This document shows, piece after piece, positions 42,692 through 63,881 of a stretch of DNA of 64,000 bases. The notes under the pieces were generated by a model. The model made no database searches, was not told where the DNA came from, and saw nothing but the letters and a program-made list of their open reading frames with translations. The number at the start of each line of letters is the position of its first letter. Position 1 is the first letter of the stretch. Source of the stretch: Erythrobacter sp. (GTDB lineage: Bacteria > Pseudomonadota > Alphaproteobacteria > Sphingomonadales > Sphingomonadaceae); contig JAPYPR010000008.1 of the NCBI GenBank assembly GCA_029937545.1, forward strand, positions 45,333 to 109,332, read 5' to 3'. The translations under genes were made by a program, and so were the position numbers.

Positions 42692-42766
42692 GGGCGCGTA
42701 GCTCAGTGGTAGAGCACACCCTTCACACGGGTGGGGTCGCAAGTTCAATCCTTGCCGCGCCCACCA
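42692..42766 (+). tRNA. tRNA-Val(CAC), island attachment site
   Basis: GGGCGCGTAGCTCAGTGGTAGAGCACACCCTTCACACGGGTGGGGTCGCAAGTTCAATCCTTGCCGCGCCCACCA folds as cloverleaf; anticodon CAC. Confidence 0.95.
42722..42766 (+). repeat. attL: 45-bp direct repeat, 3' part of tRNA-Val
   Basis: TTCACACGGGTGGGGTCGCAAGTTCAATCCTTGCCGCGCCCACCA, identical to 63837-63881. Confidence 0.95.
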
Positions 42767-43027: not shown

Positions 43028-46000
43028 TTATCCTCCCACCAGGAAGAAGTTGGCGGGTGCCTTCTCACCGAACAGCTTGTCGGAGCGCTTTTTCTTCCAC
43101 TTTCCAATGCGCCTTTCGATTTCTCGCCAGATGCTCGGCTCGAAGTTCTCCATTGGCTCACCACATGGTTTTTCACTCCGCTCCCAAGTCTGATAACGCC
43201 CGTCGACAACCTTCAAGAACAAAACACTGAAGCGCCAAAAGTCCTCATTAGATTGTGCAACCCGCACCAACTCATACCAGTGGATCGCCCATAGATTACG
43301 ATTGTACGCATAGCGTGCCGCCTCTGCTGCTTTTCCAATTATGCCTGTAAGACCCTCATGGTTTGCTATGATCGCCTCGCGATCTTCATTTGCGTGAGCA
43401 AAGCCGCAAACCATGAGTGCTCTCGAAACGTTTACAGGTTCCTCGCAGTTAAGCTTCTTCTCGACATAGGCATCCAAAACCGCTGACTTGCCTGCTGAGA
43501 GAGCCGCTAAGACCTCTTGAGCAATATCATGGTCAGTTGCCGCCTCATCCAGTCTGATTTCTCGCAATTTGTTGATTGCGCTGTGGTCGGCAGCCTCCCA
43601 GATCGAAAGACTCTCTAATCCTAGTGCTGCGGGCCCTTGAACTATGTTCACGAAGCCTCGATTGCCTCTCAGGTGCTGAAAGAGGCGGGCTGCAAATTCG
43701 GGATTGTTATGTGAGAGCACCTCCGCAACCCGAAGGCCGAAGTTGCATATATGGCGAACTTTTCGGCCTGAGTTCTCAAGAAACGCTGTCGCCCATTCTT
43801 CCAGCAAGTTCGGGTTGGATCGCGCGCAGGCTCGAAGTGTAGCCAATGCCGTGTCATCAATGATTTGCCTTGCGTCATTCCTGCTGAGCGTATCTTCAAA
43901 CGACTCAAACGCTTTTCTTCCGCGCTCTTGGCGAGCGTCAAACTCCTCCTCGGTCTCTGAGAGTCGCTTGGAAAAGTCTTCCGGGCTCAATTCATTCTGC
44001 GGTTCCTCAACAGACCGAAGGGGGGTGTGAAAAGCCTTGCGCTGGTCACCGTTGGACTGCGTTATCGTTGGTCCGACGAGCGGCAGGTCTAACTCAAGCA
44101 TCTTTGCGACAGACGCATTTAACCGATTTGGGATTTCCGAAAGGTCCGCGTTGTCAGCTGCAAGCGCTAGTAGATGATAGTGCTCTCGCGAAACTCGGCT
44201 GACCGCCGATTGTTCGGACAGAAGACCGTGGCGATAGGCCCTAGCAATTGCTTTTGCTCCATCCCATCGTTCGAAATGGCACTCTCGTGCATTCAGGACA
44301 TTCGCATCCCACTGACTATTCGCAAACGTTTGGATGAATTCAGCATCATCCAATTCGACAAGCGTTCCGATTGCAATCGAGCGAACACTGCTTTTGTCAT
44401 CGTTTGCGAGCTTGCGGAGCGAGACCACAGATCGCTCCGTCATCTCAGTTGCAGAGTAACGCGCAACCATCAGTATCGTCATTTTGAAATCTGGATCATC
44501 TGACTGAACGCATCGATCTAGCGCTCTCTCAAGAGCCAATGGCGTAGCCTCCTTGAGTACATCAGCCAAATCGAGCAACGGCGGCCCATAGGAATTTAGC
44601 GAAAGCAGAGCCTCCAATTGCTCATCCCCATCCAGATGAGGGAAGCTCATCAACAAGCCATATTGCGCGAGAATCCAATCGTCGCGGCTATCACTGTCGT
44701 CGCGGTATGGGCGACTTTTTTGCCGAGCTAGATTGAGCAGGCGCTCCCGAGCAGTACCCGTAACCAAAGCCGTTTCTTCTCTCAGGCCCAGAAGACGATG
44801 CTTTGTTGAGTTTGTAGCTGATGCACTGAACTTCTCGACTACAGAGCGGTGGACTTCAATTGCGGTTTCAGGATCGAAACGCGCCAGTCCAAAGCTTGCG
44901 TCCTGTAGAAAATGATCTTCAGCGGTCATTCCTAAGGATATGCGTAGATTATCCAGATCAATCGCTCGGTAGTCTGTCGCTGTTTGATTGATGTTCTCAG
45001 GGCGCTCCGAACTTGGATCACACGGATCGGTAGCGCAGTACTTTTCTATGAGCCGCCACCCCTCGAAGCGTTCTCGATCCTTTGTCAGTTCTTCGACTAA
45101 CTGGAGGCAAATCTGCCCGTCTTCAAAGGTACTCGTGGCACGCAAGACGTGGACGTAAGCCCACTTACCGGCTTTCGATGTATCTTTTTTTGAAAGCGGC
45201 TCGGCATGCTGCAGGAGCGCTTCTCGTGTCCGCGCCCAATCAATGGTATTGAACCGAACGAGATACATATACTCGTCATAGGGACGGTGCAGGTCTGAGT
45301 TGATTGCTTGCCCAAAGGCCCAGGCAACAAGGCTCTCTGTGAAGTCCTCGAGAGCCATGCCTGCGAGCAGCCGAAAAACTTTTGCTGCTATCTGGCTACT
45401 CGCTAAAGCGTCATCGCGCGTCATTTGCGTCGTGAAGAACGCTCTTTCATCGTCAGACAAATCATCTAGCCGGGTCGAGAGGACTTGCTCTCGTTCCGCA
45501 ACCTTCACCTCGTATGCTTCCTCTCCCTTACTGCTATCTTTGAAGACGCCAATTTTCGGATCAAGCGAGTAGCACCTAAGCCAATTATGAATGTGGCCGC
45601 TCATCGCGCTCCACGCATTGGCGTCACCACGCAATTCGCGCAGCGAATGAGTCAACCAGTCTTCGTTGCTTACGTGAGCACTTGTTACCGCTAGTTCCCG
45701 CAAGGCTTCCATAGCAGCGTTGGTTCGAGTTCGGATTACCGCCTCAAAGGCTGGGTAAGAGTCCTCGTCGATGTTTTGGAGGCGAAGGTATGCAGCAATC
45801 AGAGCTGCAACCGTACTGTCACTCGCTGTCTCATCGATTGAAGAAATGACCATAGCGGCATTTACGGCTTCTGCCGTCAAATCAAGAGCGCTAATCGGCT
45901 CTAACATTGCATCCAACGCTTCGTCAGCTGGAGTTTTGTTCCGCAAGCTGCTGCGCATTGCGTCCAGTACCGCAAATCCCAGCGCCACAATCAGCCCGTC

Positions 46001-47653
46001 ATCGGTAAGTTCATAGAAGTAGGGATCATCCGGCAGCGCGTGAAAAAACCTACCCTCAGAAACCGCAAGGAGGTTCTGTGTTAGCGCAAAAGTTTTCTCT
46101 GAACCGAGATCTGCGCTCTCGAAAACCCTGGTATCGTCGCTTTGCTGGGAACTTACGCGTGCCAGGACATCCTTTGCGTGAGCCGAAAGGCGCTTCGTGA
46201 AAATCAAAGGGTCTTCGCTTGCAGTCTGATCTTGGCTACTTTTGCGTACATGCTCAAAGAGAAGTCGTTCGATGCTTAGCTCATCGAAGTTTTGGATACT
46301 CCCACTCTCTAGTAAATCGAAGGCAATCCCAAGCACTCGGGGGTTGCGAAGCGTCTTGATCACCCGCGAACTGAGATTGCCATGTGGGACGCCGTTTTGC
46401 TCAAGGATGCTTCTGAGCTCTGGCTCCGACCATTCAGGGATCGGGATGAGCTGCTGCTTCGTCAAAAGTGCGGAGCGTAAACGACCATCGAAGTAGCTAT
46501 TTCGCACTGAAACGACCAGCCGCCCTCCGAGACCAGAAAGTTCCTTAGCCATGCCGTCAAGCCTGTCTGCCCATCGGTAATCAGGATATTGATTAAGACC
46601 GTCGACGAATACCACGAGGTTCGGCGTTGTGCCGTGTGTCTCAGTGGACCATTGCTCCATGACATTTCGCCACCGCCTTAGAGCATGTTCATTTGGGATG
46701 CTGGAGGTTTGCTTGATTATTTGCTGAGTGAGAAATTCTCGCTCATTCGCATCGGCCATCCCCTTCGGGAACTCTGATGCCGGAATTACGAGTGTGATTG
46801 GCGGATTGTCTTGTTCGGCCCAGCTCTGAGCAAAAAGCCATGTTTTACCGCGCCCCTCACCTCCAATCAGAACGACAACCTCGTCTGCAAGAGAACTGAA
46901 AACTCGAGTGCCAATCTGGGTTGATAGCGGCTGGCGTGAAACAACCGGTAAAGGGTTGATGGCAAGTGGGGATACCTGTTGACCGAACTGCTGCCTTGCT
47001 TGCCTCGGATCGGAAAATGCTCCTCGCAACCATTGCGAATTGGCATCTTGAGCTATCGATGGCCCGAGGACTGGGTTACGAAGGAACGCTAAGATTTGCT
47101 GCGAGCAATGTTCGAAGCTCGGATGATCTTGGATTTTTGCCAGTGCCGCTTCTGCGAGATTTGCCTGATGCTTATCTTTCAGTTTGTCTTCTAGAAATGC
47201 GACTGTCGCATCTTTGCCAAGCGCGCAAAGAACCGCAAGTTCAGGGATAGAAGACGTCGGCGACCAGTCGAGGAGCAGGAGGTTGATGCCCATTTTCTGG
47301 GTTGCGCGCTCCAAAGGATCAGCAATCTGCGTTTTCATCTCTATGGTCGCGCCGAGTACCCACAGGTCAGGCATCGGGTGGCTTGCAAGTATCTCCGTAA
47401 GCTTGCTGAGAACTTCGTTCTTTTTGATAGCGCCAGTGTACAACTTCGCTTCAAATGCAATCGCCCCGGTCGAAGCAGTTCCGCTACCATCCTTGCCATG
47501 TTGCGAGCCCGAGCCCGCAAGCCGAAAAGTTCGCTTTGTGATGGCACTGAATATCGATGCGAGCAGGCCCTCAAAGCCGTCATGACCGCTGTGCTTGAGC
47601 GCAGTCAGTGCTGCCCGAATATCACTCAGTTCTTTTTCTATCGACTTGTCCAT
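43028..47653 (-). CDS. Mrr-like nuclease / STAND-type NTPase / HEAT-like repeat protein, Avs-like defence candidate
   Basis: N-terminal PD-(D/E)xK pattern HGKDGSG...IAFEAKLY; Walker A GGEGRGKTW; Walker B-like LVVFVDGLNQ; long alpha-helical C-terminus. Confidence 0.7.
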   Translation of the reverse strand: MDKSIEKELSDIRAALTALKHSGHDGFEGLLASIFSAITKRTFRLAGSGSQHGKDGSGTASTGAIAFEAKLYTGAIKKNEVLSKLTEILASHPMPDLWVLGATIEMKTQIADPLERATQKMGINLLLLDWSPTSSIPELAVLCALGKDATVAFLEDKLKDKHQANLAEAALAKIQDHPSFEHCSQQILAFLRNPVLGPSIAQDANSQWLRGAFSDPRQARQQFGQQVSPLAINPLPVVSRQPLSTQIGTRVFSSLADEVVVLIGGEGRGKTWLFAQSWAEQDNPPITLVIPASEFPKGMADANEREFLTQQIIKQTSSIPNEHALRRWRNVMEQWSTETHGTTPNLVVFVDGLNQYPDYRWADRLDGMAKELSGLGGRLVVSVRNSYFDGRLRSALLTKQQLIPIPEWSEPELRSILEQNGVPHGNLSSRVIKTLRNPRVLGIAFDLLESGSIQNFDELSIERLLFEHVRKSSQDQTASEDPLIFTKRLSAHAKDVLARVSSQQSDDTRVFESADLGSEKTFALTQNLLAVSEGRFFHALPDDPYFYELTDDGLIVALGFAVLDAMRSSLRNKTPADEALDAMLEPISALDLTAEAVNAAMVISSIDETASDSTVAALIAAYLRLQNIDEDSYPAFEAVIRTRTNAAMEALRELAVTSAHVSNEDWLTHSLRELRGDANAWSAMSGHIHNWLRCYSLDPKIGVFKDSSKGEEAYEVKVAEREQVLSTRLDDLSDDERAFFTTQMTRDDALASSQIAAKVFRLLAGMALEDFTESLVAWAFGQAINSDLHRPYDEYMYLVRFNTIDWARTREALLQHAEPLSKKDTSKAGKWAYVHVLRATSTFEDGQICLQLVEELTKDRERFEGWRLIEKYCATDPCDPSSERPENINQTATDYRAIDLDNLRISLGMTAEDHFLQDASFGLARFDPETAIEVHRSVVEKFSASATNSTKHRLLGLREETALVTGTARERLLNLARQKSRPYRDDSDSRDDWILAQYGLLMSFPHLDGDEQLEALLSLNSYGPPLLDLADVLKEATPLALERALDRCVQSDDPDFKMTILMVARYSATEMTERSVVSLRKLANDDKSSVRSIAIGTLVELDDAEFIQTFANSQWDANVLNARECHFERWDGAKAIARAYRHGLLSEQSAVSRVSREHYHLLALAADNADLSEIPNRLNASVAKMLELDLPLVGPTITQSNGDQRKAFHTPLRSVEEPQNELSPEDFSKRLSETEEEFDARQERGRKAFESFEDTLSRNDARQIIDDTALATLRACARSNPNLLEEWATAFLENSGRKVRHICNFGLRVAEVLSHNNPEFAARLFQHLRGNRGFVNIVQGPAALGLESLSIWEAADHSAINKLREIRLDEAATDHDIAQEVLAALSAGKSAVLDAYVEKKLNCEEPVNVSRALMVCGFAHANEDREAIIANHEGLTGIIGKAAEAARYAYNRNLWAIHWYELVRVAQSNEDFWRFSVLFLKVVDGRYQTWERSEKPCGEPMENFEPSIWREIERRIGKWKKKRSDKLFGEKAPANFFLVGG

Positions 47654-48039: not shown

Positions 48040-48996
48040 ATGATTCTAGTGGCTGCGAAATCTGAACGATCGGGTGAGCATTACTTGAAGGTGCTCAGCC
48101 TAGATGGTGGAGGGGCCAAGGGATTTTACACGCTCGGTGCTCTCTTCGAGATTGAAGCAATAGCGGGGCGCAGACTCTGCGATGAGTTTGATCTAATTTA
48201 TGGGACTTCGACCGGAGCCATTATTGCTGCGCTGTTGGGCCTAGGCCACTCAGTTGAGGAGGTTGAAGCTCTATATCGAAGTCATGTTGTCAAAATCATG
48301 GGTCGGTGGCTTCCGCGTTCCCGGAGCGCAGAGCTGGAAATGCTTGCCCAGGAGGTCTTTGGTGACCGCAAATTTGAGGCTTTCAAGACGCACGTGGGAA
48401 TTGTGGGGACGCGATGGGAGGAAGAACGACCGATAATCTTCAAAACTAGCAAAGATCAGGCCTTCGCCGGTGCGGCAACCTTTACCCCAGGCTTCGGATG
48501 CGAAATTCGGGATGCGGTTGTTGGCTCGTGCTCAGCTTACCCCATGTTCAATCGAAAGGTAGTCAAGACAGCGCGAGGTGAGATCATCGACGTTCGCGAT
48601 GGCGGTTTCGTTGCAAACAATCCTACTCTGTATGCAATTGCTGATGCGACCGAAACTTTTGGATATTCTCGCGACAGAGTCCGAGTTTTCAGCATTGGCG
48701 TAGGTGAGTACCCGTCACCAAAGTTGCCGGCTTGGAATATTCGAAAGTGGTTTAGCAGACTTCCCAGCATGCGCTTCCTGCAGAAGACCATGGAGATCAG
48801 TACACAATCGATGGATCAATTCAGGCGGGTTCTGTTTCGCGAGGTCGAGACGCTCCGCATCAACGAGCGATACACGAACCCGGAGATGGCTACGGACTTG
48901 CTCGAGTCGGACCTGAAGAAGCTGAGCTTGCTCTGGCAGCGCGGACGCGACTCAGCTCGCGAGCAGGAAGAAAGAATTAAGCAGCTACTGACCTGA
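48040..48996 (+). CDS. Patatin-like phospholipase, CapV-type CBASS effector
   Basis: LSLDGGGAKGFYTLGALFEIE, YGTSTGAI (GxSxG), DGGFVANNP; 10 bp upstream of CD-NTase. Confidence 0.9.
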   Translation: MILVAAKSERSGEHYLKVLSLDGGGAKGFYTLGALFEIEAIAGRRLCDEFDLIYGTSTGAIIAALLGLGHSVEEVEALYRSHVVKIMGRWLPRSRSAELEMLAQEVFGDRKFEAFKTHVGIVGTRWEEERPIIFKTSKDQAFAGAATFTPGFGCEIRDAVVGSCSAYPMFNRKVVKTARGEIIDVRDGGFVANNPTLYAIADATETFGYSRDRVRVFSIGVGEYPSPKLPAWNIRKWFSRLPSMRFLQKTMEISTQSMDQFRRVLFREVETLRINERYTNPEMATDLLESDLKKLSLLWQRGRDSAREQEERIKQLLT

Positions 48997-49006
48997 AAGA
49001 CAAAGA

Positions 49007-49888
49007 ATGGCGATCTCAGAGAATCAACTCGAAACCTGGTCTAACCAAGGGCCTACCGGACAGTTCACAGATACCTACAATGCCATCCGAAATAGGTTGC
49101 TCGACAACAACGCCCCGTACCCATCGTCCAAGGTCGACGTGTATCTCCAAGGTTCGTATCGGAACAACACGAACGTCTGGGGCGATAGCGATGTTGATAT
49201 AGTCCTCTGTCACACGGGCGCATTCTTCTACGATATTGATGCGCTCAATGAGGGAGGTAAGGCCGCATTCAAAGCCGACTATCCCAATGACGCTGCATAC
49301 GGATACACCCAATTCAAGAAGGACGCAGAGGACTATATTCTATCACTCTACGCTGGGGTAACCACCGGCGGGAAAGCCCTAAAAATTCCTGCCGGCGGAA
49401 ACCGTCGCGATGCAGACGTTATTGTTTGCCAATCCGTCCGGCGATACGTGTCGTATGGACCTGCCCCGGGAACCAAGCACGAAGGCATCGCGTTTTTCGC
49501 AGACGGGACACGTATCGATAACTTCCCGAAGCAGCACGCCGAAAATTGCACCTTGAAGCACCAGGCGACAGAACAGCGCTTCAAGCGCATGGTTCGAGTG
49601 TTCAAGAACATGCGCAATTCGCTCATCGACAGCGGACATCTCACCGATGACGTTGCCCCGTCCTATTTCATTGAAGGAATGCTCTTCAATGTTCCGAATG
49701 ACCGCTTCGTTGGAAGCTATCAGGATATGTGGGTAAATTGCTTCAACTGGCTAATTGAAGCTGACCCAGATCGATTGACGACCGGCAGCCAACTACATTG
49801 GTTGGTCCGTGACAAAGAGTCAGTCTGTTGGCCGAGCAACCACTTCCATGAGTTTCTGGCGGCGTTGAGAGGCGCCTGGGAAGCATAG
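49007..49888 (+). CDS. CD-NTase (cGAS/DncV-like nucleotidyltransferase) of CBASS
   Basis: VYLQGSYRNNTNVWGDSDVDIVL (GS...DxD) and downstream RDADVIV; C-terminal helical region. Confidence 0.88.
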   Translation: MAISENQLETWSNQGPTGQFTDTYNAIRNRLLDNNAPYPSSKVDVYLQGSYRNNTNVWGDSDVDIVLCHTGAFFYDIDALNEGGKAAFKADYPNDAAYGYTQFKKDAEDYILSLYAGVTTGGKALKIPAGGNRRDADVIVCQSVRRYVSYGPAPGTKHEGIAFFADGTRIDNFPKQHAENCTLKHQATEQRFKRMVRVFKNMRNSLIDSGHLTDDVAPSYFIEGMLFNVPNDRFVGSYQDMWVNCFNWLIEADPDRLTTGSQLHWLVRDKESVCWPSNHFHEFLAALRGAWEA

Positions 49889-49958: not shown

Positions 49959-50429
49959 TCACTTGTCGCTCGCTACGCCTGTGCGGAAGAACGAGATGCC
50001 CTCTTTCGACAGGATAGAACATAGATCAACGTTTGGCGCCGCAGACAAAGCATGGGCACTGTTGAATGCGGAGCCGTGGTTTGCCTCCGGGGCGACGGGA
50101 GGCGCGGTGCTCACAATTCGCATCGACCACGCTTCCAGCCTGTATTCTTCCGGCTCATGGCGACGTGAGAACAGTACCGCACCATCGTGAATACTTGGAT
50201 TCAGATCATAGGCTGTGTGTAAAACATGACAAAAGTCTTCACAAAATGGAGCACCAGTGGGTGGAGTGGGGTCTCGTTTCATTGCCACACAATCTCGCTC
50301 AGTGATTGAGCCTGTGGCAAAAACAAGAATTAGAGGATAATAGGGCAATTCTCGCAGCAAGAGCTTCCTGAGCGTTTCCTCAAGATAGCCAGCTTGATCA
50401 GAGGGCAAATTGCTTACACGAGTTTCCAT
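49959..50429 (-). CDS. Candidate DisA_N/DAC-like nucleotide-binding (sensor) protein
   Basis: IHDGAVLFSRR...(DGA kept)...NHGSAFNSAHALSAAPNVDLCSILSKEGISFFRTG resembles the GTRHRAA..S..TDA..IVVSEE block of DAC domains but lacks RHR; start METRVS chosen. Confidence 0.45.
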   Translation of the reverse strand: METRVSNLPSDQAGYLEETLRKLLLRELPYYPLILVFATGSITERDCVAMKRDPTPPTGAPFCEDFCHVLHTAYDLNPSIHDGAVLFSRRHEPEEYRLEAWSMRIVSTAPPVAPEANHGSAFNSAHALSAAPNVDLCSILSKEGISFFRTGVASDK

Positions 50430-51054
50430 ATCGACACTGCTTATCATCGCGGTCACCGTGTGGGGAGTTTTTCTATGGTTTCTGGGCATTGAGCTCAGTT
50501 GGGATCACGCGAAGCCGTACACATTTACGCTAGGCTTTCTTACTGCTCTTGTTTGGCTGTTTGATAAGTATCTGTGGCAATTTGGGTTTTTTTCATTTCT
50601 CGACACGAGACCGTCTTTGCAGGGAACCTGGCGTGTAGAACTGAACTCCACCTATCGTAACCCAAATAATGGAGAGCCATCAAAAACCGTGGAAGCGTTT
50701 GCAGTGATCCGGCAAACGTATTCAATGCTTTCCATACGGATCATGTCTGAGGAATCGGAATCTTTTCTCGTAGCCAGTCGCGTTGAAAAGAATGAGGACG
50801 GGACTTTCTACATCTATGGTGTTTATCAGAGCGACCCCAAGATCCATAAGCGTGGGCAAGCTGCTCAACACGGAAAGGTCAGCGAGATCCACTATGGAAG
50901 CTTCAAGTACAAGCTCATTGGTACACCTGTTGAACAAATTGATGGGCATTATTGGACCGACCGCCATACAAATGGTTCGATAAAGTTCGTCGACCGAAGG
51001 AAAGCGCTTTTTGACAGCTATGAGAAAGCCAAGGCGGAGTACGCCGAACCATAG
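50410..51054 (+). CDS. Cap15-like (S-2TM-beta) membrane effector
   Basis: Two N-terminal TM helices, then PSLQGTWRVEL...VIRQTYSMLSIRIMSEESES...DGHYWTDRHTNGSIKF; TTG start. Confidence 0.75.
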   Translation: MLTRVSISTLLIIAVTVWGVFLWFLGIELSWDHAKPYTFTLGFLTALVWLFDKYLWQFGFFSFLDTRPSLQGTWRVELNSTYRNPNNGEPSKTVEAFAVIRQTYSMLSIRIMSEESESFLVASRVEKNEDGTFYIYGVYQSDPKIHKRGQAAQHGKVSEIHYGSFKYKLIGTPVEQIDGHYWTDRHTNGSIKFVDRRKALFDSYEKAKAEYAEP

Positions 51055-51162: not shown

Positions 51163-54063
51163 TTAAATTCCCAATCCCCTCCCTCGCCCAAGATCGAGCC
51201 TATGGTGAAACGCGAGCTCGCCGCCAAGCGAGCGACCGCTGCCGGTGCTGATACCCAACTCGGTCTTGCGATTGGCGAGGAGCGATTCGAGCTGGGGGTC
51301 GCGCTGAAGGCTCTTGGCCATACTCGCCATCTCAGACCGAGTTGAACGGTAGCTGCTCATCTCCCCATGCACGTAATTGTGCTGGCTCTTTCGCTCAAGC
51401 TTGTGCCAGCGGGCAACAAATTGGTCGGCTCGCTCCTGCCCAGTTTCCCGAATTTTCTGCTCGGCTTTCATGGCAAGAATGGCGCGGCGCACCCGTCCAC
51501 TTGCGGCTTCGTGCGCGAGCGGCTGATCCGTGAGGTAGGCACGCTCGATATCGCGTGAATAGTTTGCGCCAAAGCCGTCCAGCTCGTTGCGGGCAGCCAC
51601 GAGCTCCTGCCTCAGCGCCGCATGACCGCCCTGCTCAAAAGGCTGATCGAGTGTCGCGCCGTTTTCCTGCGCGAGGAACAGATGGCTGACAGCCCGGGCA
51701 TGACGCTGAACAGCTGCCTGCGCCTTGATCTGCCGATCTGTTTCCGGCGCTGGCGAGTGCGGCAACTGCAGACCATTCAAAAGGCCGCGCACCTTTTCAG
51801 GGACCTTGCGGACGATCTCGGCGACCCGCTCGCGGAAGCTGATACCGCGCCGCTCGGCAAAGCGACATTCCACGCCTTCGCTCCGGCCATAGTCGGAAGC
51901 CATATCCTTGGTGCGTTCGCGAGAAAGGGTGCGGACAAGTTTTTCGGCATCCGCGAAGTCATCTTTGCCATAGTGCAGCGAGACGGACTCGCGGTGACGC
52001 GACAGCGCGACATAGGCGCTGTGCTGATCCATTCCCGGCGTGGCCAAGACATGGGTACGGTCCACGGTCACGCCTTGCGACTTGTGGATGGTCGCGGCGT
52101 AACCGTGATCGATATGGGCATAGTCCTTTGTGTCGAATGCTACGCTTCGACCATCGTCGAGCAACACAGCCATACGCTGCGCGCTGACCGATTGCACCGT
52201 GCCAAGGCTCCCGTTCTTGACGCCCAGCTCGCGGTCGTTGCGCAGAAACATCAACCGATCGCCGGTTGCAAAGTCTCGCGTGCCGCGCTCGGCGTTTATG
52301 GACACGTCCGCACCAAGCGCGCTGTCCTCGCGCAGCTTGCCGCGCGCCAGAACATTGAGCGCGCGCACCTCATCATTGGTGTGCGTCAGAATCATCCGCG
52401 AGTGCTCGGGATCGGCGGCGCGTTCGCGGTTCCAGCTCTCAATCAGTTCCTCACGCGCAGCGTCGCGCGTCTCGGCAGTGTGCACCATACCGTTCGCGGA
52501 ATACGCATCCACTGCATCGGCGGTGCGTCCGGTCGCCAAATGCCGCGTGGCATCGCGCTGCCAGTCAACCTGCTGCCGCCTGATCTCGGTGATCTCGACA
52601 TGGCCATGCCGCTCGGCAATCGACCGGAACGCCGCACCCGCTTCGATGGCCTGCAACTGCTGCGGATCGCCGACCAGAACGACCTTCGCTCCGGCATCAT
52701 TCGCGACAGAAAGAACCCGCTCCATCTGGCGCGAACCGATCATCCCGGCCTCGTCGATCACGAGCACGTCACTCGCGGTAAGCAAGTCACGGCCCTGCGC
52801 CCACTGATGCTCAAGGCTGGCGATGGTGCGCGAGGCGATACCCGATCCGCCTTCGAGATTTTCAGCGGCAATGCCGGAAAGCGCTGCGCCGCGCACCGAA
52901 AGGCCAGCATGCTCCCACGCCTCGCGCGCAACGCCCAGCATCGCGCTCTTCCCCGTCCCGGCATAGCCGACGACGATCCCAAGGTCTCCGCCAGCAGTTA
53001 CATGATCGAAGGCCGCGCGCTGCTCGCCTGAAAGGACAAGTCCCCGCACTTCGGCGGCGGAAAGCGCACGCTCGCATGGCTGCCCCCGAAGGCGAAATTG
53101 CTCGCGCCTGGCGATCAAAGCGGAAGCGCGTTCCATTCGCGCTTCCACCTCGATCATGTCGCGCGACGTAAAACGTTCGTTCCCGCGACCATCCTTGCCC
53201 AACGCGACCAGATTAGGGGAGGACTGCACTGTACTCAATGCGCGATCGAACTGTTCTTTGCCATCCGAATGACGGTGCACAAACTTCGCAAGGTCGCGGC
53301 GCGTAAATGTCGCCTGGCCCTTGGTAATCGCGTCGAGGGCAATGTCGGGATTGGCGATGATCCGCTCGCCGTTTTCGCGGGCGATGGCGTGATGTTCGAT
53401 CAGCCGGTCCGCGTCCGGCCCCATGCGGAGCGAGGGCGCACCGATCTTGGTCTGAGGCTCAAGGTCAATCCCCTGCACCTCCAGACTGCGATGATCGATC
53501 CGCGCGTCGATATCGAGCGATGCCAGCCGCTCGTTGACATGATCGGCCCAGCGCTCGCGCCATGCGCTGATCAGCTCGGTGCGGTTCCAGTCGCGGACCT
53601 TCGGGCCGAAGCCGTCCTCGCTCACTTCCCGCATCGTAAGCATGACATGGGCATGCGGTTTGGCGAGACGGTCCGCTCCGATGTCCCAATGCACGTTGAG
53701 GTCGGCGACCATCCCGCGCTCGACAAACTCTTGCCTTACAAAATCGCGGGCCAGTTCGACTCCTTGCTGCTGGTTCAGCTCGCGCGGAATGGCGAATTCG
53801 ATCTCGCGCGAGAGCTGCGCGTCCTTGCGCAGTTCCGTCGCCTCGACCTCATTCCACAGGGTCGAGCGGTCGCCCAGCCGTTCGGGCGCAGCGTCGGGCA
53901 GCATCACTTCGGAATGGACGACGCCAGCCTTGTTCGTGAAGTCATGCGAACGATCGAGCCGGTCATCATGAAGCCGCTCAGCGGAACGGTAGGCAGCGGA
54001 GGCGACCGCGCTCGATCCCGCGCTGCGGGAAATGACTTTTGCCGAGAAATGGTAGATCGCCAT
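51163..54063 (-). CDS. traA: Ti-type conjugative relaxase TraA (relaxase + RecD-like helicase)
   Basis: MAIYHFSAKVISRSAGSSAVASAAYRS, HAHVMLTMREV, GYAGTGKSAMLGVA, VLIDEAGMIGSRQ; start at internal MAIYHFS. Confidence 0.93.
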   Translation of the reverse strand: MAIYHFSAKVISRSAGSSAVASAAYRSAERLHDDRLDRSHDFTNKAGVVHSEVMLPDAAPERLGDRSTLWNEVEATELRKDAQLSREIEFAIPRELNQQQGVELARDFVRQEFVERGMVADLNVHWDIGADRLAKPHAHVMLTMREVSEDGFGPKVRDWNRTELISAWRERWADHVNERLASLDIDARIDHRSLEVQGIDLEPQTKIGAPSLRMGPDADRLIEHHAIARENGERIIANPDIALDAITKGQATFTRRDLAKFVHRHSDGKEQFDRALSTVQSSPNLVALGKDGRGNERFTSRDMIEVEARMERASALIARREQFRLRGQPCERALSAAEVRGLVLSGEQRAAFDHVTAGGDLGIVVGYAGTGKSAMLGVAREAWEHAGLSVRGAALSGIAAENLEGGSGIASRTIASLEHQWAQGRDLLTASDVLVIDEAGMIGSRQMERVLSVANDAGAKVVLVGDPQQLQAIEAGAAFRSIAERHGHVEITEIRRQQVDWQRDATRHLATGRTADAVDAYSANGMVHTAETRDAAREELIESWNRERAADPEHSRMILTHTNDEVRALNVLARGKLREDSALGADVSINAERGTRDFATGDRLMFLRNDRELGVKNGSLGTVQSVSAQRMAVLLDDGRSVAFDTKDYAHIDHGYAATIHKSQGVTVDRTHVLATPGMDQHSAYVALSRHRESVSLHYGKDDFADAEKLVRTLSRERTKDMASDYGRSEGVECRFAERRGISFRERVAEIVRKVPEKVRGLLNGLQLPHSPAPETDRQIKAQAAVQRHARAVSHLFLAQENGATLDQPFEQGGHAALRQELVAARNELDGFGANYSRDIERAYLTDQPLAHEAASGRVRRAILAMKAEQKIRETGQERADQFVARWHKLERKSQHNYVHGEMSSYRSTRSEMASMAKSLQRDPQLESLLANRKTELGISTGSGRSLGGELAFHHRLDLGRGRGLGI

Positions 54064-54090
54064 AGCGGCAATCCAGTTACTGCAAACAAG

Positions 54091-54120
54091 CGACGTCGGC
54101 ACGACGTATAAGCGCGCCCT
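54091..54120. promoter_or_regulatory. Candidate oriT / nic region of Ti/RSF1010 (MOBQ) type
   Basis: CGACGTCGGCACGACGTATAAGCGCGCCCT between divergent traA and traC/D-like genes; resembles TAAGTGCGCCCT-type nic and the Ti oriT ATACGTCG core. Confidence 0.65.
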
Positions 54121-54234
54121 CACATGATAAAATCCTGTTCGGGATCGGCCCGTGCCAGCCCGTCCCGGCAACACTGCAGCAATCGGAAGCGAAGCGCTTT
54201 AAGATGTTCCCATCACCCAATGACGGAGACAATC

Positions 54235-54781: not shown

Positions 54782-54829
54782 AGCGAATACAGGGTGCAGG
54801 CCGAGTCCGGTTTTGCTAGACTGAAACAA

Positions 54830-55768
54830 ATGCGAAACGATCTCGATCATCTGCCACCACAGAAACAACGCGAACTGGAACGCGTGGTGCAGCTTGTGTT
54901 CGAAGAGTTCGACGACGCCTTCGCGCTCTCCAAACACGAATGGAAGAAGGCGGGACGCATCCTGAAGGTCATTCTTTACGGCAGCTATGCGCGGGGCACT
55001 TGGGTCGACGAACCTCACACCGCCAAGGGCTATCAGTCGGATTACGATCTGCTCATCATCGTCAATGACACGCGGTTGACCGACAGGGTCAAATACTGGG
55101 CAAGGCTGGATGACCGGCTGATGCGCGAATATGGCGTTACCGGCACGCTCAAGACCCCCGTCAACTTCATCGTTCACACGCTTCAAGAGGTGAACGACGG
55201 GCTGGCCCATGGTCGCTACTTCTTCATGGATGTGAAGCAGGATGGAATCGCGCTCTACCAGTCAGACGACACCGAGCTGTACACGCCCAAGCCCAAGACA
55301 CCCGAGCAGGCACACTGCATGGCGCAGGAATACTTCGAAGACTGGATGCCCAGCGCGTCAGATTTCTTTGATGGGTATCTCGACGCCAAAGCGCGAGGGA
55401 AGTTCAAAAAAGCTGTCTTCGATTTGCATCAGTCCGCTGAGCGAATGTATCATACCGCATTGCTGGTCTGCACTTTCTACACCCCGCACGTGCACAACCT
55501 CGGGTTCCTTCGCACTCAGGCCGAGCGCATCGATCCGCGCCTGACCTATGTCTGGCCGCGCGAAACGAGGCGCGATCGCGCGCGCTTCGAGAAGCTCAAA
55601 GAGGCCTATGTGAAGGCGCGCTACTCAAAGCACTATCGCATCACGAAGGAAGAACTCGAATGGCTCGGCGAACAGGTCGAGGAGCTGGGACGCGTCGTCC
55701 ACGAGGTTTGCACCGAGCGCCTCGAAAAGCTCAAAGCTGACGCCAGGGCGCGAACGGATAACCAGTGA
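54830..55768 (+). CDS. Nucleotidyltransferase + HEPN domain protein
   Basis: NT motif LYGSYARGTW...GYQSDYDLLIIV; C-terminal HEPN-like helices (FKKAVFDLHQSAERMYHTALLVCTFYTPHVHNLGFL). Confidence 0.85.
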   Translation: MRNDLDHLPPQKQRELERVVQLVFEEFDDAFALSKHEWKKAGRILKVILYGSYARGTWVDEPHTAKGYQSDYDLLIIVNDTRLTDRVKYWARLDDRLMREYGVTGTLKTPVNFIVHTLQEVNDGLAHGRYFFMDVKQDGIALYQSDDTELYTPKPKTPEQAHCMAQEYFEDWMPSASDFFDGYLDAKARGKFKKAVFDLHQSAERMYHTALLVCTFYTPHVHNLGFLRTQAERIDPRLTYVWPRETRRDRARFEKLKEAYVKARYSKHYRITKEELEWLGEQVEELGRVVHEVCTERLEKLKADARARTDNQ

Positions 55769-55956: not shown

Positions 55957-57741
55957 TTAACTCTTAGGCCGTGTATCGCTCCAAGGTAAAATCGGCCGCC
56001 GTCGCGAATATTCGGTCCACGTGTCCAGATCAAGAATCAGCCGATATTTGTCGCGCAGGCGTTCGAACAATAGTCGGTCGCGCGGCTCTGGTTTACCTGG
56101 CCCCGCAGGTTTTGATTTGAGATATCTGCCCAAAACTCCCAGTAGGAAATCTGGCGCGCTAATTCCAAAGTGGGGCTTTGAGACAATTTGTATTCCGAAA
56201 GCTAACGGACGGCGATCATCGTGGGCCTTGAGGTGATCGAAGACGCTTTGAACGAGTGCTTCGGTTTTCGCAGCTGAGACTTTGCTGTTCTGCTCAAAAT
56301 AAAGAAAGGCAAATTGGCTCTCGGCGGCCTTTAACCGTCGTTCGATCAGCGCGCCGAGCAACCGGAGATAAGTTTTCTCATAGTGTGGCGGCCCGTCGTA
56401 TTCGGCAAAAGCGACGTAACCTTCAAAACGCATGCCAGCGAGACGCTTGATGTATTGGATGCGAAGGTCCTCGGTTGCGTCCGCAAAATGAAGTCCCCGC
56501 TTGCGCAACGCTTCGACATTTCCATCCAAGTAGATGTCGTTCAAAGCTGCTGATAAAACTTGGCCTGCCTCTGTGGCCATTCGCGGACCATGCTGGCTCA
56601 CGGTCATGCCAAGCGCGAGGATCGTTTTGCCTTCATTCTGAAACTCTGCCTCGTCGACGAAGAGATAGAAAGGAGATCTGTGTTGGCCGCGCGGCACGAA
56701 ACTTGGTTTCATGCCTTCAGCCTGTAATGCCCCACGCCAATCCGTCTTCAGACGCGCGGCCAGCGCAGGTTCGTGGTGCGCGACGAACCGGACTGTTCCA
56801 TCCAGACGATTGACTTCTTGCTGGATCACACTGCCATCATTGATACCAAGATGCCGAAAATGGTCTCCTAAACCAAACTTGCCAGCGTAATAGAGCTCCT
56901 GCCGCAAGCGGCGTTTCAGCTTGCGTGGAACATGTGGTTGAGCTGGATCGCTGATGCTAAGACCCGTTACGTAATGCGCTTGGCCAATTTTGGAGCGGCG
57001 TGTTTTCTGCTCCGCAAGCACGAAGCCTCGCTCCTCGACGAGACGACGAAGGATTCCAAGGTCCGGTAGATTGCCAATGCCAGAGAAAGTCAGATCGTCG
57101 GCATATCGCGTGTAGGTAGTATCTGTAGCCTTGGCCAGCGCTTCACAGGCAAGGTCAAGCGGTAGCGCAACTGCATTCGAGATGACCGGGCTAGTCGGCA
57201 AACCGAGCGGTAGCCCGCCGCCGATGGTTACAAACTCTGCAAGTAGATCGGCCACTTCGGAGCCAATCCCCAGAGTTTTGAATAATCGCCCGATGCGGTC
57301 CTCTGAAATTGAGGGGAAGAACTCTCGCAGATCGACCGTGAGCAAGCCTTCGTGGCCTGTATGGACAGCGGCGTTCTCACGAATGTTGCGTCCCTGACGG
57401 TAGCCATAAACGGCGTCATGCGGATACCCTGGAAGCAGGATTTGAAAGAAGGTCTCAAGTCGCCGCGCCAACGCTTTATATTCAAGCTTCGCGAGTAAGG
57501 GTTCCCATACGGTGCGATACCCGCGACGCCGGTTACGTTTTGGAATATCGTGTCGAAAGAACATCGGAATCGAGAGAGCTGACGTGGGGCCCACGACGCT
57601 TTCTGATCTTTCGGTCGTCTCTTCGCGCTTTAAAGGCGGATCGAAAGCAAGAACGGCATCGAAAGTAGCTTCGTCGGTTCCAATGGCAACGATGAGCGCT
57701 TCGCGGCTTGTTATGCGACGCAAATCCCCAGGGAACGTCAT
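55957..57741 (-). CDS. Retron-type reverse transcriptase with C-terminal DUF3800-like domain
   Basis: RT YTRYADDLTFSG; retron hallmarks NAAVH (NAxxH) and HYVTGLSISDP (VTG); C-terminal SPFYLFVDEAEFQNEGKTILALGMTVS resembles DUF3800. Confidence 0.75.
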   Translation of the reverse strand: MTFPGDLRRITSREALIVAIGTDEATFDAVLAFDPPLKREETTERSESVVGPTSALSIPMFFRHDIPKRNRRRGYRTVWEPLLAKLEYKALARRLETFFQILLPGYPHDAVYGYRQGRNIRENAAVHTGHEGLLTVDLREFFPSISEDRIGRLFKTLGIGSEVADLLAEFVTIGGGLPLGLPTSPVISNAVALPLDLACEALAKATDTTYTRYADDLTFSGIGNLPDLGILRRLVEERGFVLAEQKTRRSKIGQAHYVTGLSISDPAQPHVPRKLKRRLRQELYYAGKFGLGDHFRHLGINDGSVIQQEVNRLDGTVRFVAHHEPALAARLKTDWRGALQAEGMKPSFVPRGQHRSPFYLFVDEAEFQNEGKTILALGMTVSQHGPRMATEAGQVLSAALNDIYLDGNVEALRKRGLHFADATEDLRIQYIKRLAGMRFEGYVAFAEYDGPPHYEKTYLRLLGALIERRLKAAESQFAFLYFEQNSKVSAAKTEALVQSVFDHLKAHDDRRPLAFGIQIVSKPHFGISAPDFLLGVLGRYLKSKPAGPGKPEPRDRLLFERLRDKYRLILDLDTWTEYSRRRPILPWSDTRPKS

Positions 57742-57783
57742 CGAACCGGAGCTTGCTGTGAGGCGGCATGAGATACGAAGCAA

Positions 57784-57895
57784 GTGGTGCTGAAATCAGC
57801 AGACGCGACTCGCGCCTTGAACCTTATAACCATACCGCCCCCACGCGCCTTATACTGCAAATTGAAGGAGTTTAAAGAAAAGAAGGTTCGGTGAC
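57784..57895 (-). ncRNA. Candidate retron msr-msd-containing leader
   Basis: Upstream of RT: inverted repeats GAACCTT/AAGGTTC (57819-57825, 57883-57889), GCTGA-N2-TCAGC and CGCGA-N-TCGCG. Confidence 0.3.
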
Positions 57896-58055
57896 CATAC
57901 GCCATCCTTGCTATTTCGGCATTTGTGACCCAGCGTCGTCATTCCGCTCCCGGCCTAAAAGCTACCGTTTGAATCACATGCTCAGAATGTCTGCTTCCTA
58001 CTCCAAACTCAGGCGTTCGCAGTCGCGTGAACGGCCCCCTGAAGTGGAAAGGCAG

Positions 58056-58937: not shown

Positions 58938-60158
58938 ATGCTCAACGAATTCGCCACACTCCGCGTCCGTGCCGGTCTTTCACTTGAAGACGCAGCAGGT
59001 CTCACAGGCTATAGTGTGCGCCAGCTGCAGCGCTGGGAAGCAGGCGTCGGAAAGCCGAGAGATGCAGCGGCGCGGGTGCTGGCATCACTGGCCGGAACAG
59101 AGCCTGCTGCAGTCGGCACCCGGTTCAATTTCGTCGACCTGTTCGCCGGGATCGGCGGGATTCGTAAAGGCTTCGACGCTATCGGCGGGCATTGCGTGTT
59201 CACGTCCGAATGGAACAAGTTCGCGCAGGAAACCTATGCTGCAAACTTCCGCGACAATCACCCGCCCCACGGTGACATCACGCAGATTCCCGCTGATGAA
59301 ATTCCTGACCATGATGTGTTGCTCGCGGGCTTTCCCTGCCAGCCCTTCTCGATCGCAGGCGTTTCCAAGAAGAACTCGCTCGGACGCCGGCATGGCTTCC
59401 TCGATGAGACGCAGGGCACACTGTTCTTCGATGTCGCCCGGATCATCCGCGCGAAACGGCCTGCAGCCTTCCTGCTCGAGAACGTCAAGAATCTCACCGG
59501 TCATGACAAGGGCCGCACCTTCGAGGTTATCCTCCGGACGCTGACCGAGGAACTGGGCTACAAGGTCTGGCATAAGGTGATCGACGCGCAGCACTTCGTG
59601 CCGCAACACCGCGAGCGGATTGTGATTGTCGGGTTTCGCGAGAACGTGCCCTTCGACTGGGACGATCTGACGCTGCTCCCGAAGGGCAACGTGCGGCTCG
59701 CAAGCATCCTGCATCCGGAGAACGGCTCCGAGAATGCCGAAGAGCCCTACACGCTTGGCTCCGGTGCGAAGGTCAACGGCAAGTATACATTGTCCGACAA
59801 GCTCTGGCAGTACCTGCAAGGCTATGCCGCAAAGCACAAGGCAGCCGGGAACGGATTCGGCTTCGGGCTGGTGACGCCCGACGATGTCGCGCGGACGCTC
59901 TCGGCGCGCTATTACAAGGACGGTTCGGAAATTCTGGTGAGTCAGGGAAGCCGGAAGAACCCGCGCCGTCTCACTCCGCGCGAATGCGCGCGGCTGATGG
60001 GTTATGGTGATGACTTCCGCATCCCGGTGTCAGATACGCAGGCTTACAAGCAGTTCGGCAACTCGGTTGCGGTTCCGGTGTTCGAGGCGGTGGCAAAGGT
60101 AATGCAGCCGCACATTCAGGCTCTTGTTCAACCGGCGAGGCAGCGCAAAGCTGCCTGA
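58938..60158 (+). CDS. DNA (cytosine-5) methyltransferase with N-terminal HTH domain
   Basis: [33 protein letters not shown]-terminal [39 protein letters not shown]. Confidence 0.95.
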
Positions 60159-60161
60159 GGC

Positions 60162-60614
60162 GTGACCGACGTTCATGACCCGGCAACGCGCAGCCGCAAT
60201 ATGGCGGCGATCAGAGCGCGCGACACGAAGCCCGAACTGTTGATCCGCACGGCTCTGCACGCGGCGGGCTTTCGCTACCGGCTCGATGTCCGCAACCTGC
60301 CCGGAAGGCCGGATATCGTCCTGCCCCGGTTTCGGGCGGTCGTCTTCGTACATGGCTGCTTCTGGCACCGGCACGAGTGCGATCTCTTCCGTTGGCCGGA
60401 AACCAGACCAGAGTTCTGGCACGAGAAGCTCAACACCAACGCAGACCGTGATCAAAAGGCCGCCGAAGCTCTCGCCAAAGCGGGATGGCGGCAGGCGGTG
60501 ATCTGGGAATGCGCGCTGAAGGGCAGAAACAAGCGCGATTTTCAGGACACTATGCAGCGACTGATCGGCTGGATACAGTCGGACAGGAAGGCGATTACTA
60601 TCAGGGGCGAATAA
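60162..60614 (+). CDS. vsr: Very short patch repair endonuclease Vsr
   Basis: RSRNMAAIRARDTKPELLIRTALHAAGFRYRLD..LPGRPDIVLPRFRAVVFVHGCFWHRHEC. Confidence 0.95.
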   Translation: MTDVHDPATRSRNMAAIRARDTKPELLIRTALHAAGFRYRLDVRNLPGRPDIVLPRFRAVVFVHGCFWHRHECDLFRWPETRPEFWHEKLNTNADRDQKAAEALAKAGWRQAVIWECALKGRNKRDFQDTMQRLIGWIQSDRKAITIRGE

Positions 60615-61934
60615 TTGGTCGCATCACTTGCGCAGCTGCTGGATCTTATGCGGCATCACGGTGCAACCCGCATCTACGCCAAGAATCTCGCGCCCAACGA
60701 TAATTCCAAGAACCAGGTCTATCTCGGCGGTGACTTCTCGGCGCTGAACATCATTCCGCACGGCGAAATCTTCAGTGACGACACGGCAGTTGCCGGTGCG
60801 GTCCGCGACCGCGCCAAGGCAAGTGTGAACTTCTTCTGGGTCGATGAGGCAGGAAAACATCATGCACCTGACGCGGGGCTGATCCTCTATCCGAAGTACC
60901 CGGAGGTCCGAATGTCGGGCTTTCTCAAAGGCTGCCGTCAAGCACCCTCGGAAATCATGCGCGTGCGCGATGAAGGACGCCTGCTCGTCTTCGGCATCAC
61001 ACCTGATGGGGTTGTCCTGGGTTTTGCGGCTGAAGCGGCCCATCCCGTCGCTGTCGAAGTCCGCAATTACCAGTGGCCGATGATCGGGGTCTTTCTGGAA
61101 CTGCCGCTCCATGCCGGTCAGGCCGACAGCCCGAAAGACCGCCTGCTGAACGAATTGCGCCGCATCTGGCGGCTCAACTGGATCGCTTCACAGAAACTCG
61201 CAGCCGACGGCCAAAAGCAGCCGTATTCTGCGCGCAACGGCGGGGGCTATACGCTTGAGGCCGAGCTCGGCATTTCCCCTAACAGCTATGCAGAGCCCGA
61301 TTTCATGGGCTGGGAGGTCAAGCAGTACGGCGTGCGCGACTTCGTGCGCTTCGCCCCGAAATCGCCGGTCACACTGATGACGCCCGAACCAACCGGCGGC
61401 ATCTATCGGGACGAGGGTGTTGCCGAATTCATGAAACGGTTCGGCTATGAGGACCAGTCCGGGAAGGCCGACCGCATCAACTTCGGTGGCAGATATGACT
61501 GCACGAAAGACCTGCACCACCTCACCGACCTGCGGATGGTGATGTCCGGATATGATGCACAGTCAGGCAAGATCACCGATCTCGACGGTGCGCTCAGCAT
61601 TGTAAACAGCGATGACGAGATCGCGGCTTCATGGTCGTTCAAGGGAATGATGGCGCACTGGAACCGCAAGCACGCTCAGGCCGCTTACGTACCGTCGTTG
61701 TTCCGGACGCCGCCGCCGGAATACAGTTACGGGCCGAGCATCCTCCTCTGCGAGCAGACTGATTTCCTGCTCTTTCTGAAAGCCTTTGCGTCCGGGTCCA
61801 TCTACTACGATCCGGCCATCAAGGTCGAAGAGGCGTCATCGGAAAAACCGAAGATCAAAAGGCGAAGTCAATTCCGCGTGGCTCATGCCGATCTTCCTCG
61901 CCTTTATGAAAGGCACGAGGTCGTCGCTCTGTAG
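60615..61934 (+). CDS. MvaI/BcnI family type II restriction endonuclease
   Basis: Third gene of MTase-Vsr-REase operon; YTLEAELGISPNSYAEPDFMGWEVKQYG (ExK motif). Confidence 0.85.
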   Translation: MVASLAQLLDLMRHHGATRIYAKNLAPNDNSKNQVYLGGDFSALNIIPHGEIFSDDTAVAGAVRDRAKASVNFFWVDEAGKHHAPDAGLILYPKYPEVRMSGFLKGCRQAPSEIMRVRDEGRLLVFGITPDGVVLGFAAEAAHPVAVEVRNYQWPMIGVFLELPLHAGQADSPKDRLLNELRRIWRLNWIASQKLAADGQKQPYSARNGGGYTLEAELGISPNSYAEPDFMGWEVKQYGVRDFVRFAPKSPVTLMTPEPTGGIYRDEGVAEFMKRFGYEDQSGKADRINFGGRYDCTKDLHHLTDLRMVMSGYDAQSGKITDLDGALSIVNSDDEIAASWSFKGMMAHWNRKHAQAAYVPSLFRTPPPEYSYGPSILLCEQTDFLLFLKAFASGSIYYDPAIKVEEASSEKPKIKRRSQFRVAHADLPRLYERHEVVAL

Positions 61935-62164
61935 AAACTGATGCTCCGCAGGGCGCAGCCTCGTTCTCGTACCGATGGATGCGAAATTCCATGGATCTGT
62001 TCTTCGTGGCGAACCTGACCAGTCACTGGTGACACGATACTACCACCCGCCGTCATGACTTGTTTTTTCTTCGCTGCAATTCGCCGGACTGGAGAAACGC
62101 TTTTCTCCCCGAAGAAAGCGGGCAATTTCATCACAGGGGGTGTCAGCGACCACCAAGGAATGGA

Positions 62165-62395
62165 ATGCCGAACATGCCAGAACCAGACCGTATCATTCGC
62201 CTCAAGACCGTTCTTCATCGCACAGGGCTGTCGCGATCGACGGTCTATCGCAAGATCGCCGAAGGGACGTTCCCGCCTCAGATACCGATCAGCGTTCACG
62301 GCGCGGGCTGGAGCGAAGCCGAGATCAACCGCTGGGTGGCCGACCCGCCCGGCTACAGGGTCGCCGATAGCCGGAACCAATCCGGGATCGATTAA
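62165..62395 (+). CDS. AlpA family transcriptional regulator
   Basis: IIRLKTVLHRTGLSRSTVYRKIAEGTFPPQIPISVHGAGWSEAEINRWV. Confidence 0.9.
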   Translation: MPNMPEPDRIIRLKTVLHRTGLSRSTVYRKIAEGTFPPQIPISVHGAGWSEAEINRWVADPPGYRVADSRNQSGID

Positions 62396-62524: not shown

Positions 62525-63694
62525 TCAAAGCACCAATTGGGCGAGCGCATACTCCGCATCGTTGCGCACCAGATGCCCATAATGTTTTTCGATCATGGCG
62601 ACGCTCGTATCGGAAAGCTGAGCGACCGTAAGAATTGGCAGGCCGGCGCGCACCAGGTCGGTAATCACGCTATGGCGCAATGTGTATGCCGAAGTCGCCG
62701 AATGGAGGTTTGCAGCGGATACCGCATTCTTGATGGGACCTTTCCATTTATCTTTCGACCATGGCGAACCGTCAGCACGCTGGAACATCCGATCGCCGGG
62801 CGACCTGCCCTTGCTTTGTTCGGCAAGGAAGTCTGCGATGGTTTCAGGAACTCCTATCTGTCTTGGAACGCCATTCTTGTCAGTGCCGATTGTGAGAGTT
62901 CTGGTTCTGATGTCGAAGTCGCTGACTTTCACCGCTGCAAGGGCGCCAGGACGCAATGGCAAAAGACAAAGACCGCGAACAAAGGGCTCTATATCTTCAG
63001 AAAGTGCCGCCAGCAGCTTCTTGCGCTCCGAACGATCCAGGTAGACTTCACGACGTCGGTCGGCACCCTTGATGGGTTTCAAAGCCTCTTGCCATGCAGC
63101 GGAGGTATTTGGAGCTCCCGGAGACAGGACACGTCGCAGCGCCGCGCGAAGTGGGACCATGTCGCGGTTTACTGTGGAGGCAGCTCGCTCCTTGAAACGA
63201 GGTTCACCCAGCTTGCTTCGGCTGATCAATGCCGGTGCTTTCTCCAGCCTTTTCCGCCATGCCTGCAACTGATGCTTTCGCAGCTTGTCTAATTTAACTC
63301 TGGCAATCGCGTCATCGTAAACGTGCCGGCGAAAGACGCCTTCGGCGATTGAGCCTGGCCTTTCCTCAAGATAAGCCCTGCATGCGTCTGCAACTGTTTC
63401 CAGTCTCTCCGATCGCAACCCTCCAGTCTCGACCGATTCCGCGAATGACTCGGCATCCTTCTTGGCAGTTGAAAAAACTTCATGACCTGAGACAGTCCCA
63501 AATGCACCAAGATTCTTCCGTCGATACTTTCGTGCATCATCATCGTACACACGAGCAAACCAAGTGCCCTTCCCGCCCCGTTGTGAAGGCCGGTATCCAA
63601 CATACCACCCAGCTTGTAGACGCTGCCAGTGGGGCTCTTTGTCCCCTCGCGGCTTAAGCTTTTCGCGCGCACCAATCTTGCTAAGGTCGGGCAT
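62525..63694 (-). CDS. int: Tyrosine-type site-specific integrase
   Basis: GLCLLPLRPGALAAVKVSDFD, YTLRHSVITDLVRAGLPILTVAQLSDTSVAMIEKHYGHL; start at internal MPDLSKIGAREKLKP. Confidence 0.92.
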   Translation of the reverse strand: MPDLSKIGAREKLKPRGDKEPHWQRLQAGWYVGYRPSQRGGKGTWFARVYDDDARKYRRKNLGAFGTVSGHEVFSTAKKDAESFAESVETGGLRSERLETVADACRAYLEERPGSIAEGVFRRHVYDDAIARVKLDKLRKHQLQAWRKRLEKAPALISRSKLGEPRFKERAASTVNRDMVPLRAALRRVLSPGAPNTSAAWQEALKPIKGADRRREVYLDRSERKKLLAALSEDIEPFVRGLCLLPLRPGALAAVKVSDFDIRTRTLTIGTDKNGVPRQIGVPETIADFLAEQSKGRSPGDRMFQRADGSPWSKDKWKGPIKNAVSAANLHSATSAYTLRHSVITDLVRAGLPILTVAQLSDTSVAMIEKHYGHLVRNDAEYALAQLVL

Positions 63695-63718
63695 TCGTTC
63701 AGTGCCTTCGTATGAAAA

Positions 63719-63739
63719 GTATGAAACGAGTATGAAAAA
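63719..63739 (+). repeat. Candidate integrase arm-type site, right
   Basis: GTATGAAACGAGTATGAAAAA, identical to 42800-42820; an extra GTATGAAAA at 63710. Confidence 0.7.
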
Positions 63740-63836
63740 CGTGGGGAGACTGCCTGACATCAGTTTAGACATATGCCACTGTTTTTCAAGTGCTTTAAGA
63801 GTCCCAGAAAATCCCAGTTTGTCGTGAAACCCATCT

Positions 63837-63881
63837 TTCACACGGGTGGGGTCGCAAGTTCAATCCTTGCCGCGCCCACCA
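63837..63881 (+). repeat. attR: 45-bp direct repeat, 3' fragment of tRNA-Val
   Basis: Identical to 42722-42766; no 5' half of a tRNA present. Confidence 0.95.

Follow-up and report, generated by a model that had tools for sequence, protein, structure and literature searches.

The window analysed here is a 64,000-nucleotide stretch of the Erythrobacter sp. contig JAPYPR010000008.1 (assembly GCA_029937545.1, positions 45,333 to 109,332 of the forward strand). It contains a 21.1-kb integrated mobilisable element located in a tRNA-Val (CAC) gene (window positions 42692-63881), and at the left end of this element lies a gene for a 1541-amino-acid (aa) protein, which the original prediction had described as an Avs-like candidate built of an Mrr nuclease, a STAND NTPase and HEAT-like repeats. 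Our analysis suggests that this gene probably encodes an antiphage immune protein of the nuclease-STAND type that works on its own, as a one-gene system. The features of the gene are as follows.

43028..47653, minus strand: 1541-aa Mrr-nuclease / STAND (NACHT-like) NTPase / helical-sensor protein (open reading frame, family alignment, dN/dS)
47204..47653, minus strand: N-terminal Mrr-type PD-(D/E)xK nuclease domain, residues 1-150 (hhalign to Mrr_cat homologues; restriction endonuclease match of a relative)
47438..47491, minus strand: catalytic motif D55...E68-x-K70-x-Y72 (conservation in 17 members)
46274..46936, minus strand: STAND/NACHT-like NTPase, residues 240-460 (NACHT/nSTAND1 matches in sister proteins; predicted alternating strand/helix order)
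46838..46864, minus strand: P-loop GGEGRGKTW, residues 264-272
46589..46618, minus strand: Walker B LVVFVDGLNQ, residues 346-355
43031..45736, minus strand: all-helical C-terminal region, residues 640-1541, proposed sensor (low-confidence AlphaFold2 (AF2) secondary structure; HEAT-solenoid fold matches)
44114..44566, minus strand: HEAT-like repeats, residues ~1030-1180 (four lines of evidence, each weak alone)
43196..43222, minus strand: conserved C-terminal element LxxxxxDxR (L1478, D1484, R1486)

The open reading frame starts with an ATG at 47653 and its stop codon ends at 43028, so that the coordinates, strand and length given by the original prediction were exact. Comparison with the 87%-identical homologue of Blastomonas aquatica gave a ratio of nonsynonymous to synonymous substitution (dN/dS) of 0.13, indicating a protein-coding gene maintained under purifying selection. 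The G+C content of the gene is 52%, versus 64% in the part of the window left of the element. Divergence at fourfold-degenerate sites from the Blastomonas homologue (L002:4045-8667) drops from 0.43 over codons 1-700 to 0.16 over codons 1001-1541 (Fisher p 6e-11), which implied that the gene is a mosaic whose effector and NTPase parts have a different recent history from the far C-terminal sensor.

The nuclease and NTPase modules

An alignment of 17 near-full-length members of the family extends from end to end. The three motifs named in the original prediction, GKDG...FEAKLY (residues 53-72), GGEGRGKTW (264-272) and VVFVDGLNQ (347-355), are all present, and chance is an inadequate explanation for them because their key residues are invariant in this alignment. 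Within the nuclease domain, all 17 members share E28, Q51, G53, D55, E68 and Y72, and K70 is present in every member except L036 (EARRY). Single-sequence searches reported no Mrr match. When the profile of residues 1-160 was aligned by hhalign with eight Mrr_cat homologues from related genomes, the probability was 80.9% (P 1.2e-5, 102 columns), versus 0.1-2.1% in control alignments with four further segments of the family, and the alignment paired the FE, the active-site region and the ExK-x-Y strand. In the low-confidence AF2 model, E68-x-K70 is predicted as a strand, and the order of strands and helices is consistent with a restriction-endonuclease-like core. Taken together, profile and model indicate that the N-terminus carries an Mrr-type PD-(D/E)xK nuclease with a D...(D/E/Q)xK active site, and nothing was found that places the motif outside the restriction-endonuclease fold. 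The restriction endonuclease (REase) domain of short prokaryotic Argonautes (pAgo) in PADLOC also matches the relative L020 weakly (residues 23-156, E 6e-4). This likens the family to the REase-type effectors of short pAgo systems, from which it differs in having no pAgo, TIR or PNTD parts.

The central NTPase was recognised through sister proteins. The Pfam NACHT model matches L017 over nearly its full length with 28.4 bits (cut-off 26.7) and L018 with 26.6 bits, 0.1 bit short of the cut-off, and it is sub-threshold or absent in members other than L017. nSTAND1 matches L022 weakly (E 0.0018), and other AAA models match the remaining members. The window protein itself gave no match to NACHT, nSTAND1 or any other AAA model in the Pfam scan, and its STAND assignment therefore rests on its homologues and on the conserved motifs. 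These comprise G264, G267, G269, K270 and W272 of the P-loop and D351, G352 and N354 of Walker B, all invariant in the 17 members. The sister-protein matches and the invariant Walker A and B residues argue for a central STAND NTPase; the profiles did not place the protein outside this class. Matches of the window protein to JukA and to O-acetylserine lyase were rejected as chance.

An Mrr-type nuclease joined to an ATPase, in an element that also carries a type II restriction-modification (RM) system, could alternatively be an NTP-dependent type IV-like restriction enzyme that reads modified or foreign DNA directly, with the helical region playing a structural part. We regard this as very improbable, for the NTPase is NACHT/STAND-like and not McrB-like in the profile scans, and scans of the window protein and the family members found no DNA-reading domain.

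The C-terminal region and the relation to Avs4 and bNACHT proteins

The protein was modelled by AF2 in two segments, residues 1-640 and 601-1541, from three sequences per alignment. Residues 601-1541 were modelled entirely as helix, with a mean predicted local distance difference test (pLDDT) score of 50. The original prediction of about 1000 aa of helical repeats thus stood as far as the helices are concerned, and the support for HEAT-like repeats is confined to residues ~1030-1180. This stretch is the best-modelled part of the C-terminus (pLDDT about 65-89); HEAT_2 matches below threshold at residues 1044-1112 (E 0.08), and a designed alphaREP matches family profile positions 1029-1146 (E 0.3). 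The top fold matches of the C-terminal model are the HEAT proteins transportin, CAND1 and importin-beta, weak at E ~1e-3. A HEAT-like fold is plausible for residues ~1030-1180 on these profile and model data and unproven elsewhere in the C-terminus. Because the pLDDT of both models is low, fold matches are suggestive only.

The best structural match in PDB of the residues 1-640 model was Avs4 bound to the phage portal (8dgf; E 2.8e-6, 664 columns), a lead only, as the model is of low confidence (pLDDT 56) and the TM-scores are low (0.23). Plant NLR resistosomes also match this model. The window family resembles Avs4 in its N-terminal Mrr-like nuclease, central STAND NTPase, long helical C-terminus, single-gene organisation and size of about 1.5 kaa. 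The searches with hidden Markov models of Avs that the original prediction had called for did not place the protein in a known clade: the PADLOC Avs4 model PDLC02169 (1570 positions) matched neither the window genome nor any member scanned, the NCBIfam Avs models matched neither the window protein nor the members scanned, Avs3a and Avs3b profiles gave no match, and Avs1 turned up in no PADLOC or NCBIfam scan. The Avs2 profile matched weakly in the relative L018 alone (E 0.029, 52 residues of the NTPase). Searches of PDB with the family profile found no Avs chain, and a search for true Avs4 sequences in 369 genomes of another class returned weak matches only, mostly to the AAA region.

A very divergent true Avs4, of the same lineage and with a TPR-like sensor that recognises the phage portal, would account for the top structural match of residues 1-640, the similar length (1541 aa versus 1570 model positions), the shared domain order and the single gene. 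It is nevertheless unlikely, considering that PDLC02169 missed the family, that the family profile found no Avs chain in PDB, and that the top 50 fold matches of the C-terminal model (pLDDT 50) are HEAT solenoids, with 8dgf absent from them. In this low-confidence model the C-terminus looks HEAT-like, an apparent further difference from 8dgf. Of the original designation as an Avs-like candidate, the architecture and the Avs4 fold match of the low-confidence model hold, and the Avs4 profile match is lacking. That the protein works like Avs4 is supported; that it is an Avs4 was not borne out by profile. In terms of sequence, the best reading is that the family is distinct from the catalogued Avs clades and is missed by present libraries. 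More tentatively, and with somewhat less than even confidence, it might represent an undescribed clade of nuclease-STAND receptors alongside Avs1-5, in which a HEAT-type sensor would recognise a target other than terminase or portal and the invariant LxxxxxDxR element would take part in activation.

The family also shows likeness to bNACHT proteins of clade 6 (bNACHT25/32, with a PD-(D/E)XK effector; PMC12169576), which combine a nuclease, a NACHT module and a C-terminal helical sensor, and NACHT matches were obtained in several members. It differs in that the window protein has no NACHT match and a Walker B of the form DGxN(Q/E), and no NCH1 or SNaCT model matched. The tripartite effector-NACHT-sensor layout of bNACHT and NLR-related proteins is present in the window protein family. 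The nuclease-STAND-repeat kind is already known, as proteins that combine Mrr_cat, STAND and repeats were described earlier from P4 satellite hotspots (Rousset 2022, PMC9122126). The likeness, drawn from description and not from sequence, extends to the Mrr_cat nuclease, STAND domain, C-terminal repeats and mobile-element carriage, whereas those proteins belong to enterobacterial P4 satellites and the present one to a sphingomonad mobilisable element.

The invariant residues of the family are concentrated in the nuclease, the P-loop and Walker B, but a few C-terminal positions are fixed as well, among them L1478, D1484 and R1486, which do not vary in any of the 17 members even though conservation is otherwise lowest in the sensor. 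Conservation of this LxxxxxDxR element would be easier to explain by a host target that stays constant than by a phage ligand that varies, and the sensor could act as a guard, monitoring some host process or chaperone that infection perturbs and firing the nuclease in response. bNACHT25 offers a precedent, since it is activated through DnaJ without binding the coat protein (PMC12169576), and NACHT is the closest domain model of the family. The sensor as a whole is, however, less conserved (mean pairwise identity 20-26%) than the nuclease (32-35%), and we consider a host-state guard rather unlikely.

Distribution of the family and its host element

The 17 members span Alphaproteobacteria, one other class of the phylum (genome G857) and Nitrospirota. 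Protein searches found relatives in 9 of the 401 genomes of the order (own genome counted), in 14 plasmid records and in one viral contig (IMG/VR), and further relatives are present in the class-level and phylum-level genome samples; none was found among 50,697 phage genomes. Most annotated plasmid records with a family member label the product 'hypothetical protein'. The Nitrospirota relatives, on plasmids of Candidatus Manganitrophus, share 36% identity across the whole length, and the maximum-likelihood tree places the Nitrospirota copy next to one from Ensifer, suggesting horizontal transfer. The Blastomonas homologue adjoins a different integrase, and the sequence it shares with the window beyond the gene itself is limited to ~128 bp on the upstream side and 60 bp on the downstream side, which argues that the gene moves as a one-gene system. 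In Azospirillum, a 1735-aa unannotated protein lies 117 bp upstream of the homologue (L019:4544-9751), and a large partner protein may therefore exist in one clade of the family. Relatives adjoin a CBASS SAVED protein with RM, HamA (Hachiman), RloB, GajA (Gabija), a ThsA-like SIR2 protein and PDC-S37.

The 21.1-kb element that carries the gene in the window has the following further features.

42692..42766, plus strand: tRNA-Val (CAC), integration site
42722..42766, plus strand: attL, 45-bp perfect direct repeat (tRNA 3' end)
48040..48996, plus strand: CBASS patatin-like phospholipase effector (PADLOC 4.3e-141)
49007..49888, plus strand: CBASS CD-NTase cyclase (PADLOC 5.4e-104)
50410..51054, plus strand: CBASS 2TM-type effector (PADLOC 4.3e-60)
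51163..54174, minus strand: MobA/TraA-type relaxase-helicase (Pfam MobA_MobL 8.1e-70)
55957..57783, minus strand: retron VII-A1-type reverse transcriptase (RT)-DUF3800 (PADLOC 3.5e-249)
58938..61934, plus strand: type II RM system with C5 methylase, Vsr and MvaI/BcnI-family restriction enzyme (Pfam)
62060..62395, plus strand: AlpA-type regulator (Pfam 1.5e-17)
62525..63841, minus strand: tyrosine integrase of the element (Pfam Phage_integrase 5.6e-12)
63837..63881, plus strand: attR, same 45 bp as attL

The element is a compact defence island, with CBASS, retron and RM genes beside the 1541-aa gene inside the tRNA-Val insertion. A scan around the RT-DUF3800 gene (57784-58060 upstream) gave no match to any Rfam family, and the non-coding RNA of the retron was thus not located. 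An MNT-type nucleotidyltransferase fused to a HEPN domain (54794-55768) adjoins the relaxase and is possibly an unclassified defence or toxin-antitoxin gene. An uninterrupted empty integration site for the element was looked for and not found. In at least 10 of 60 other genomes of the genus, the contig with the tRNA-Val gene contains the 3' end of this tRNA once more, 9-70 kb away, and the site thus appears to be a hotspot of repeated integration in the genus. Several other contigs of the genome carry at their ends the same ~54 bp that close the window (63946-64000), probably the edge of an insertion sequence where the contig breaks.

Carriage on a mobilisable element and on plasmids, together with the hotspot character of tRNA-Val, would also fit a role in competition between mobile elements, such as anti-plasmid activity or island maintenance, instead of phage defence. 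We judge such a role improbable, given that the neighbours are mainly antiphage systems and that the architectural relatives act against phages.

Proposed function and its implications

The antiphage reading is supported by nuclease and NTPase residues that are invariant across 17 diverse homologues, by the Mrr_cat profile link, the NACHT match in L017, the Avs4 top fold match and purifying selection, and by one-gene mobility, the element with CBASS, retron and RM, the relatives beside defence systems and the published precedents. Several points weigh against it. The window protein alone gave no significant match in single-sequence searches of Pfam, NCBIfam, PADLOC or PDB. The Walker B of the family reads DGxN(Q/E), and that of NACHT proteins usually ends in D-E. 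The AF2 models are poor, with a mean pLDDT of 56 for residues 1-640 and 50 for residues 601-1541, and the association of relatives with defence neighbours was counted without a random-gene baseline.

By analogy with characterised systems, the most likely action of the 1541-aa protein is DNA cleavage that kills or arrests cells infected by phage. In Avs1-4, recognition of terminase or portal sets off DNA cutting by the nuclease effectors (PMC12931631), and PD-(D/E)XK bNACHT proteins provide nuclease-dependent defence in which DNA is degraded on infection and the active-site aspartate is needed (PMC12169576). Modelled on these Avs and bNACHT proteins, from which we infer sensing, oligomerisation, DNA cleavage and the abortive outcome, the protein would rest as an inactive nucleotide-bound monomer until something made by an infecting phage or mobile element is bound by the helical C-terminal region, which is HEAT-like in part. 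The P-loop would then bind ATP and so drive oligomerisation via the NACHT/STAND module, and the oligomer would bring the N-terminal Mrr-type nuclease domains together to cut host and phage DNA, ending the infection by abortive death or arrest. For testing, the window protein offers definable point mutants (D55, E68, K70, K270 and D351) and a natural homologue of 87% identity.

If this interpretation is true, it would add a coherent receptor family that is undetected by public defence-gene models, and in which the phage or host feature read by a HEAT-type sensor could be sought. It would also extend the range of NLR-like immunity among environmental bacteria of the Alphaproteobacteria and Nitrospirota.

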